A stretch of DNA of 45,683 nt, from positions 1 to 45,683 of the forward strand of contig JAGXSE010000006.1 of NCBI GenBank assembly GCA_018333865.1, written 5' to 3'. The translations under genes and the position numbers were made by a program. The stretch is from Syntrophomonadaceae bacterium. Its GTDB lineage: Bacteria; Bacillota; PH28-bin88. The notes under the pieces were generated by a model. It did no database searches. It was not told where the DNA came from and saw only the letters and a list, made by a program, of their open reading frames with translations. How positions within the stretch are numbered: position 1 is the stretch's first letter; every line of letters begins with the position of its first letter. Below are positions 3,747-45,288 of the stretch, one piece after another.

Positions 3747-4020
3747 ATCGGGTGTAATCGCAGGGGGCAGTAAAGGGTCAGGTCTATATTCTTAACATTA
3801 TTGCTTATTTCTTGCGTATTTATTCCGAATCGTATTTTAATACCTTCCCCTATGGTAAACCAACGCAACGTACGCCAAGGAATAGGCTGGGCAAGGAACC
3901 TGTCCCCGTGTATACTGGTGTTCGTGACTTTCTGACTTTCATGCGCCAGAAATAGCCGCCGCAACAAAAGTATTGACGACAAAAGACGCCTTGCCAGACA
4001 ATAATTTAGTATAGTGTCCC
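3747..4020. repeat. Composite dispersed repeats between glycosyltransferase and hsdR fragments
   Basis: Three repeat pieces follow each other. From about 3774 a GGGTCAGGTCTATATTC motif abuts the glycosyltransferase remnant. At 3879-3910 there is a copy of the repeat also seen at 1472-1503, ending CAAGGAACCTGTCCCCGTG. At 3933-4017 lies a sequence that matches 45124-45208, 41 kb away, at close to nine positions in ten; both include AGACGCCTTGCCAGACAATA. No gene is supported. A minus-strand frame over 3683-3982 is open but simply spans the repeats. Confidence 0.75.
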
Positions 4021-4087
4021 CTTAATTCCCTTTTATTCCTTTAATTCCCTTTAATACCCTTAATTCCCCTCCCTTAATTCCCCCCCA
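4021..4087. repeat. TTAATTCCC short-period repeat
   Basis: The motif TTAATTCCC or a close variant recurs five or six times at intervals of roughly 10-15 bases. The same motif follows GTGTCCCC at about 254-285. The right edge of the repeat is exactly where recognisable hsdR coding sequence stops, so it marks a rearrangement junction. Confidence 0.7.
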
Positions 4088-4352
4088 TAAATCGAGCATT
4101 CTTCTTCGAAACCGTGCCGCCTTCGATGTGGCGTAATCTATAGGCCGCTTCAAAAAGTGCAGCTTCCGGCAGCCTTGGGTTGACCCGACGCAGGGCGGGC
4201 AAAAGCTCAGCCATATAAAGAGGATCGATATAATCACGCACCACGTCAGGGCCATAGACGTTGGCATACCCTAATGTGTCGCGAAACATCTCGATGACCG
4301 CGTTTTCATAGTCGGCCTCGGTGTATGGTGTCAGGTGAACCTCCTTGAGCAC
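4074..4352 (-). pseudogene. hsdR: Type I restriction enzyme R subunit, N-terminal fragment
   Basis: About 88 residues are kept, including YENAVIEMFRDTLGYANVYG, DYIDPLYMAELLPALRRVNP and a segment ending in EGGTVSKKNARFM. This is the conserved N-terminus of HsdR, whose full length is near 1000 residues and carries the nuclease and the DEAD-box translocase. Here homology stops after NARFM, where a GGN tail and TAA (4074-4076) derive from the TTAATTCCC repeat. The PD-(D/E)XK nuclease core and all helicase motifs are absent, so the fragment cannot restrict DNA. The start is GTG 4352, one base after the stop codon of the HEPN-motif gene, which indicates that the two were once one operon. No hsdM or hsdS is in the window. 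Confidence 0.85.
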
Positions 4353-4353
4353 G

Positions 4354-5202
4354 TTATAGATTAGGCAACTCTCGTATAGCCTTTATAGTCTTTGGCAGAA
4401 AGGCCTGATAGTTTGTCAATATCATTTCAAATTGTTCTTTCGTTATAATTTTGCCTGTAGGATGACCGCTATCATTCCGATTCTGCCGAATCACGTCCAT
4501 ATAATTGAAGTTAAGGTGTACATTTTCGAACCCAAACGACTTGAAGATTGTTGGCTTTGCTTCAATTCGCTTCATTAGCTCCGTTAATCGAACAGACGCT
4601 ATCTTTGCATTGATGACTTTTCTTTCATATTCAGATTGTTCTGAAGGAGTGCCATGCTTTTTGAGATACTCATAATACGCACAACTCAATTCAAGAAGTA
4701 GCAGTTCGGCAGAGCAACCCAACATTACTGTAGCAGATAACATATTGTTGGAATGTCCATTTTCACAAGCCTCAAATAGATACTTCTTTTGTATCTCGGG
4801 AACATCAGCATTATCAGCCAGATATTTCATAAAACTCGTAAAGACGCTACCCTGCTCGACAATTACTTTTCGCTCCTCAAAAGTAATCTCTTCAAGGTTA
4901 ATTGCTAAAACGCCAACATTATTTATGCCTAAATAGTGATAAGTATCATCATTCTCATAGATGCTACAGGCAATCTTTGAGAGATATGGCAACGCTCCCA
5001 TAACCATACTACGAAAAGCAATGGGTACTTTCAAGTTTGAATATAATTTTCTTTGATAAGAAACTATACCTGAAAACTCCCATTGAGGGTCAAAGTTAAA
5101 CTTGGACCTGCTTAAAACGTTAGCAAGGTCTGTCTTGCCACCATCTTTCAAAACAGCTATCAGTGTAGCCAACATCTGGTTTTCACTAACTGAATAACTC
5201 AT
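4354..5202 (-). CDS. HEPN-motif protein of unknown function, hsdR-linked
   Basis: The 282-residue protein is not recognised as a named family. Its C-terminal part has NRNDSGHP with R242-N243-x3-H247, which fits the R-[N/D/H]-x3-H signature of HEPN ribonuclease domains, and the surrounding 150-280 region is predicted all-helical (AELLLLELSCAYYEYLKK, then LTELMKRIEAK). HEPN proteins commonly act as RNases in toxin-antitoxin, abortive-infection and restriction-associated systems. The start ATG 5202 follows AAGGAGAG at a good distance. The gene ends one base before the hsdR fragment, so it probably belonged to a type I restriction locus as an accessory defence component. Its frame is intact although its partner is destroyed. 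The HEPN call is an inference from one motif plus context. Confidence 0.6.
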   Translation of the reverse strand: MSYSVSENQMLATLIAVLKDGGKTDLANVLSRSKFNFDPQWEFSGIVSYQRKLYSNLKVPIAFRSMVMGALPYLSKIACSIYENDDTYHYLGINNVGVLAINLEEITFEERKVIVEQGSVFTSFMKYLADNADVPEIQKKYLFEACENGHSNNMLSATVMLGCSAELLLLELSCAYYEYLKKHGTPSEQSEYERKVINAKIASVRLTELMKRIEAKPTIFKSFGFENVHLNFNYMDVIRQNRNDSGHPTGKIITKEQFEMILTNYQAFLPKTIKAIRELPNL

Positions 5203-5220
5203 AAAGTACTCTCCTTTTTC

Positions 5221-5335
5221 TCAATATGCAGCAGCGCTTGACCAGTTGTAATCTTCTGCATTTTGAACGATTAATTCCAGCACTAACAGGATTGAGTTCA
5301 ACATAACCGACAGCCTAACACAGATATCTATCGTC
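5221..5335 (-). pseudogene. REP-associated tyrosine transposase (RAYT) C-terminal remnant
   Basis: Reading leftwards from about 5335, one frame gives DDRYLC, an in-frame TAG, then AVGYVELNPVSAGI. After a frame change near 5272 the next frame gives VQNAEDYNWSSAAAY and a TGA at 5221-5223. DDRYL, Y(V/I)ELNPV.AG and (A/P)EDY.WSSA are the hallmark C-terminal motifs of RAYT / Y1-type TnpA proteins. The stop codon, the frameshift and the missing HUH and catalytic-Tyr regions make it a relic. It lies directly upstream of the HEPN-motif gene, in a 280-bp spacer that otherwise holds nothing recognisable. Confidence 0.75.
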
Positions 5336-44883: not shown

Positions 44884-45288
44884 TTATTTCTCCTTTCTAC
44901 ACGCTATCCAATGCACATACTCACTTAATATATATTTGCGTCAACTCTGCAAAAACCTTCCCTTAAAAAAAATTTGGTTAAGCGGACCCAAACACAAGGG
45001 GACGGTTCTTTTGTGTTCTGCAATTGGTGATCATGACTTTCATACGACAGAAATAGCCACCGCAAAAAGCACAAGGGGAAAGCACAAGGGGTCGGTTCTT
45101 TTGTGATCTATAACCGGTGATCATGACTTTCATACGACAGAAATAGCCACCGCAACAAAATTATTGTCGGCAAAAGACGCCTTGCCAGACAATAATTCAG
45201 CATGGTATCCACCTATATTCAACCCGAAAATGATTGAGTATACCAAATCGATGCGACATGGGTTATAATAAGGGCAAGAAACAAGAAA
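44884..45288. repeat. Repeat-filled spacer with a 90-bp-period direct duplication
   Basis: Two copies of a 74-base unit at 44993-45066 and 45083-45156 are exactly 90 bases apart. Each begins CACAAGGGG(A/T)CGGTTCTTTTGTG, another variant of the repeat family with CACAA/TTTTGTG ends, and continues with TGATCATGACTTTCATACGA and AGAAATAGCCACCGCAA. The second copy extends to about 45210 with the sequence shared with 3933-4017. TATAAT at 45264-45269 could be a -10 box for the Rpn gene that follows, without a clear -35. No gene is seen in this stretch. Confidence 0.85.

Follow-up and report, generated by a model that had tools for sequence, protein, structure and literature searches.

A HEPN-like gene beside an hsdR remnant in a Syntrophomonadaceae genome, a probable antiviral cargo of type I restriction operons

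The contig JAGXSE010000006.1 of a Syntrophomonadaceae bacterium (GenBank assembly GCA_018333865.1), analyzed over its 45,683 nucleotides and referred to below as the window, carries an intact gene for a 282-residue HEPN-like protein next to the broken 5' end of hsdR, the gene of a type I restriction subunit. Judged from sequence comparisons, this is probably a suicide-type RNA-cutting gene and a new example of a known bacterial antiviral cargo, not a new type of system. The explanation favored here on balance is that of an abortive-infection-type effector, in which an AbiJ-style sensor or autoinhibitor is joined to a HEPN RNase and which would be carried as a mobile cassette in the slot between hsdS and hsdR, and also on its own. 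The features on which the analysis is based are collected in Table 1.

Table 1. Features of the HEPN-like locus (window positions)
Feature	Positions	Strand	Description
HEPN-like gene	4354-5202	-	Intact, 282 codons, ATG start; N-terminal common domain of about 105 aa and C-terminal HEPN-like helical domain
N-terminal domain, about residues 1-113	4863-5202	-	Common to PLD-nuclease and Abi_C-HEPN proteins; reciprocal profile searches
C-terminal HEPN-like domain, residues 115-282	4357-4860	-	Helical AF2 core and DUF4145 profile-profile score
R-N-D-S-G-H motif, R242 to H247	4462-4479	-	Putative metal-independent RNase site; R, N, S, G and H invariant in five members
Leader with ribosome-binding site	5203-5217	-	Homology to the hsdS-HEPN gap of G202 extends up to 5217
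hsdR 5' end remnant	4086-4328	-	81 codons, part of HSDR_N; tblastn and DNA alignment
Lost native hsdR start codon	4329-4331	-	ACA in place of the ATG of both intact copies; conserved AAGGAGGT ribosome-binding site in front
REP-like repeat region	3930-4085	.	TTAATTCCC array and AGTATAGTGTCCCC motif; hsdR is broken off at the edge of the region
Y1 / REP-associated transposase, 3'-end relic	5229-5300	-	82% DNA match to G000:C34

The original prediction described a 282-residue protein with an R-N-x3-H motif, whose gene ends one base before an hsdR frame. Both statements are correct: RNDSGH occupies residues 242-247, and the next open frame, 4074-4352 on the same strand, begins with GTG one base downstream. 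The stretch R242-N243-D-S-G-H247 conforms to the R-x4-6-H motif of the HEPN superfamily with a polar residue following the arginine. A family of five members could be assembled, consisting of the window protein, a protein from a genome of another family of the same phylum (G202), a Paenibacillus plasmid protein and two phage-contig proteins, the latter two being found by the DNA pattern of the motif. The sequence RQxRN[DE]SGHPTG is kept in all five at identities down to about 30% and 54 columns of the family alignment are invariant, so the motif is not due to chance. The window protein keeps 54 of 55 family-invariant columns. The family is a rare one: full-length matches are present in 2 of the 398 sampled genomes of the phylum, and no relatives were found in two scans of genome contigs and two early viral scans. 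A match in G326, limited to a short stretch of a glycosidase-like frame, was taken as chance.

Membership of this family in HEPN is considered very probable. The profile of DUF4145 (PF13643), itself a HEPN family (PMC3710099), matches four of the five members over the motif, below its cut-off (best E 0.0041), with 12.1 bits for the window protein and 17.6 for the best member against a Pfam gathering cut-off of 23.1. Alignment with hhalign to DUF4145 domains gathered within this phylum gave a score of 26.8 with R-N-x3-H in register, the maximum in 200 column shuffles being 23.0. The same comparison of the C-terminal domain with Abi_C was uninformative, and no match to Abi_C (PF14355) was found in the effector domain of the window protein. 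Pfam, PADLOC and NCBIfam returned no family above cut-off for this protein, and searches of PHROGs and PDB sequences gave nothing useful. The proposed HEPN fold is supported only in part. The single-sequence AF2 model was useless (mean pLDDT 36) and the model built from three sequences (mean pLDDT 55.5) is informative only outside the motif, where it is moderately confident and displays a helical C-terminal domain with residues 120-220 at about 65-89 and residues 250-282 at 66-83. The motif loop (residues 228-251) falls below pLDDT 50, Foldseek retrieved no significant match to the three-sequence model from the PDB and viral libraries, and the model is too poor for a fold to be assigned. The sequence evidence, although sub-threshold, is consistent with a DUF4145-like HEPN.

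The N-terminal domain has a wider distribution than the family itself. A profile of residues 1-112, built exclusively from the family, finds PLD nucleases and Abi_C-HEPN proteins with E values of 2e-13 to 2e-5, and more weakly a Cytobacillus PLD protein (E 0.02), all computed for a nominal 100,000 sequences. A profile made only from the PLD proteins finds the window family in return, and no decoy ORF was matched. In the phylum sample, the domain is present in 5 of 398 genomes (the window genome, G202, G004, G233 and G369) and is accompanied by an Abi_C match in the proteins of G004 and G369. In G233 it is fused to PLD at about 1.1 kb from an hsdM fragment, and no hsd genes lie near the G369 protein. 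When the window genome and G202 are left out, two of the three remaining genomes have hsd genes adjoining. Taking some 0.4% of a genome to lie within such a distance, which is a rough estimate, this outcome has a chance probability of about 1 in 20,000. The G004 locus (L040 1058-7664) is an intact operon ordered hsdM, N-domain-Abi_C HEPN, hsdS and hsdR, with gaps of 4-5 bases to hsdM and hsdS. Elsewhere, N-domain-PLD genes follow ABC-3C genes in Peribacillus and an AAA-S8 protease pair in G422, and the phage NatCom_35866 from human faeces (L073 1083-5762) has a single run of overlapping genes for EVE-McrB, McrC and an N-domain-PLD nuclease.

The published partners of AbiJ-NTD1 are the AbiJ HEPN domain, DUF4145 and HKD/PLD (PMC3710099), and the N-terminal domain was found here with DUF4145-like, Abi_C and PLD effectors. 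Likened in this manner through the partner list, it is probably AbiJ-NTD1 or a sister domain. A bolder proposal, which appears doubtful to us, would make it a universal plug docking swappable nucleases (two kinds of HEPN, and PLD) onto type I restriction-modification, McrBC, ABC-3C and AAA-S8 protease platforms, each platform being the sensor that licenses the effector. If this were true, restriction enzymes would gain a swappable second-line killing module.

The predicted coupling of the HEPN gene to type I restriction is true of the history of the family. In G202, a protein 92% identical to that of the window is encoded in a complete type I operon between hsdS and an intact hsdR of 1004 codons, and the restriction link was therefore once real. 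The gene order is hsdM, invertible hsdS, integrase (tyrosine recombinase), hsdS, HEPN-like gene and hsdR, with a GmrSD-type gene downstream of hsdR and an ABC-3C-like trio, recognized by eye, upstream of the operon. Embedding in a type I hsd operon, a position characteristic of PrrC and RloC, is thus intact in G202, whereas the window keeps only the hsdR scrap. The hsdS pieces of G202 (L014 5801-9299) are oppositely oriented and associated with inverted repeats of 36 nt at 94% and 75 nt at 75% and with the tyrosine recombinase; the operon is apparently phase-variable.

Comparison of both sides of the HEPN-hsdR junction reveals a mosaic. Between the window and G202, the HEPN gene has 78 differences in 849 bases (dS 0.36), while across the junction the hsdR parts differ by 28% with saturated dS, and the hsdR part of the window is 92% identical in DNA to an operon of its own genome (contig C9) that is devoid of a HEPN gene. 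The HEPN gene was therefore exchanged independently of hsdR. The type I operon on C9 (G000:C9, L012 5135-13690) is intact, and a RhuM-like gene separates its hsdM from its hsdS. Only some homologues lie next to restriction genes, as that of G202 does; the other relatives do not. The protein of the Paenibacillus polymyxa plasmid is 32% identical, and no hsd genes are annotated within 9 kb of it; the two phage contigs encode proteins 29-30% identical, without hsd genes. The family is thus free-standing cargo as well, and the existence of solo copies implies that the protein is tolerated even without an hsd partner. Both phage relatives (L024 3559-4449 and L026 7895-8746) are located directly upstream of an apparent small terminase gene, a possible cargo slot.

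In the window, the hsdR gene is indeed truncated, as had been predicted, but homology to HsdR covers only 81 codons and not the 88 residues originally proposed. The remnant has 91% amino acid identity to the intact hsdR of C9 and 74% to that of G202. Its native ATG has been lost, so the GTG mentioned above is only an incidental start of the open frame. Similarity to hsdR runs out at about 4085, at the start of the REP-like repeat, which contains a tandem TTAATTCCC array at 4017-4083 and has 31 matches in its own genome. On the other side of the HEPN-like gene stands the Y1-transposase relic, whose translation reads by eye ...VELNPVCAGIVQNTEDYIWS. No hsdM, hsdS or other hsd operon gene was found elsewhere in the window, the surroundings being a polysaccharide gene cluster. 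The REP-like repeat (AGTATAGTGTCCCC...) is also present at 45034-45220 and some of its copies in the genome adjoin Y1-transposase relics.

Other explanations of the gene have to be weighed against a self-contained effector. It might not encode a HEPN RNase at all, and would then be an unrelated helical protein with a convergent RNxxxH, for instance a regulatory or binding subunit of a restriction enzyme. In its favor, no HEPN model passes its cut-off and no PDB or Foldseek match was obtained; these points also count against the favored explanation, as does the low confidence of the motif loop. Such convergence is nevertheless very unlikely, in view of the invariant motif, of a DUF4145 match which recurs on that motif, of a profile-profile score above all shuffles, and of the fusion of the same N-terminal domain to a true Abi_C HEPN. 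Somewhat less remote, and still unlikely, though conceivable for the operon-borne copies, is an obligate partnership of the PrrC kind, in which binding by the type I enzyme would silence the HEPN RNase and free it only when the enzyme is disabled; the window gene, having no hsdMSR, would then be toxic or silenced in its expression. PrrC has such a link to EcoprrI, which silences it (PMC2610378, PMC3710099), the G202 gene occupies the hsdS-hsdR slot used by DarTG2 (PMC12255303), and the intact G004 operon likewise embeds an N-domain-HEPN gene. Against this partnership, relatives live alone in two phage contigs and on one plasmid, the HEPN gene has moved relative to hsdR, the protein has no ABC ATPase domain, and the window frame survives in the absence of hsdM and hsdS.

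A different question is whether the window copy is still alive. The original prediction took the open HEPN frame as a hint of continued use, and this argument fails: the dead hsdR scrap is also stop-free over its 81 codons, and its dN/dS (0.14 versus C9) is as low as that of the HEPN gene (0.11 versus G202). An open frame as proof of selection is consequently ruled out. In simulations of random substitution, stops were absent from between 2.7% (with 78 changes) and 15% (with 39 changes) of the runs, and both dN/dS values largely reflect selection that preceded the deletion. Recency, the other half of the suggestion, explains both open frames. The copy may still function or may have died only recently. 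It is quite conceivable, at a little less than even chance, that the gene is a silent leftover of an operon whose deletion is too recent for stops to have arisen, a reading that is compatible with a functional family. The relic and repeats flanking the gene, the equally open scrap and the lack of a convincing promoter, only weak promoter-like matches being found upstream, all point in this direction; the near-complete retention of the invariant columns and of the native leader with its ribosome-binding site points away from it.

The self-contained effector would operate as follows. Sensing or restraint by the N-terminal domain, and RNA cutting by the HEPN domain, is the logic proposed for such proteins (PMC3710099). 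Here, a sensor or autoinhibitor domain of the kind published as AbiJ-NTD would keep the C-terminal RNase inactive until an infection, or the inhibition or overwhelming of a linked restriction enzyme, releases it. The released enzyme would cut RNA in a metal-independent manner via R242 and H247, and growth would stop before phage release. The cassette would travel in the hsdS-hsdR slot of type I operons, a slot proposed as a recombination hotspot for defence cargo and occupied by DarTG2 (PMC12255303), and alone in phages and plasmids. Judging from the copies that exist on their own, the protein is probably tolerable without the restriction enzyme, which favors a self-contained effector in this slot. 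In the present genome, the operon would have been lost save for the HEPN gene and 81 hsdR codons, caught between the Y1-transposase relic and the REP-like repeat. Of this explanation, the sequences themselves show the intact frame, the conserved motif, the operon position in G202, the modular N-terminal domain, the mosaic junction and the broken hsdR, while the RNase activity, the autoinhibition, its trigger and current expression of the window copy are inferred; the copy may be unexpressed.

Several known systems resemble this family. DUF4145 HEPN proteins, often fused to or located beside restriction-modification subunits (Anantharaman 2013, PMC3710099), share the register of R-N-x3-H, a helical C-terminal domain, the association with restriction-modification and a published fusion to AbiJ-NTD1 (PMC3710099). 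In contrast, all members of the window family score below the Pfam cut-off and the protein stands alone, not fused to a helicase or restriction endonuclease. AbiJ is similar in its small N-terminal domain with interchangeable Abi_C (AbiJ) HEPN, DUF4145-like HEPN and PLD effectors, and differs in that the window protein itself has no Abi_C match, NTD1 being compared by its published partner table. PrrC with EcoprrI is likewise a HEPN-type nuclease linked to a type I operon, while the window protein has 282 residues, no ABC ATPase domain by Pfam and relatives living without hsd genes. DarTG2 of the RRDM island (PMC12255303) is also defence cargo between hsdS and hsdR, with another toxin chemistry and a separate antitoxin. 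In 2013, with PrrC as the model, restriction-linked HEPN genes were predicted to encode suicide RNases that act as a second line (PMC3710099). The present family offers a compact case, with 282 residues, no ATPase, an intact operon in G202, solo relatives and one N-terminal domain combined with three effectors, in which control of the effector by the restriction enzyme or by its own N-terminal domain becomes a directly testable question.

Upstream in the window, a frame at 360-1286 resembles, by eye, Rpn/PD-(D/E)XK transposase-family proteins. It includes a 12-base tandem repeat (1062-1129) encoding AEGK/AEGR repeats.
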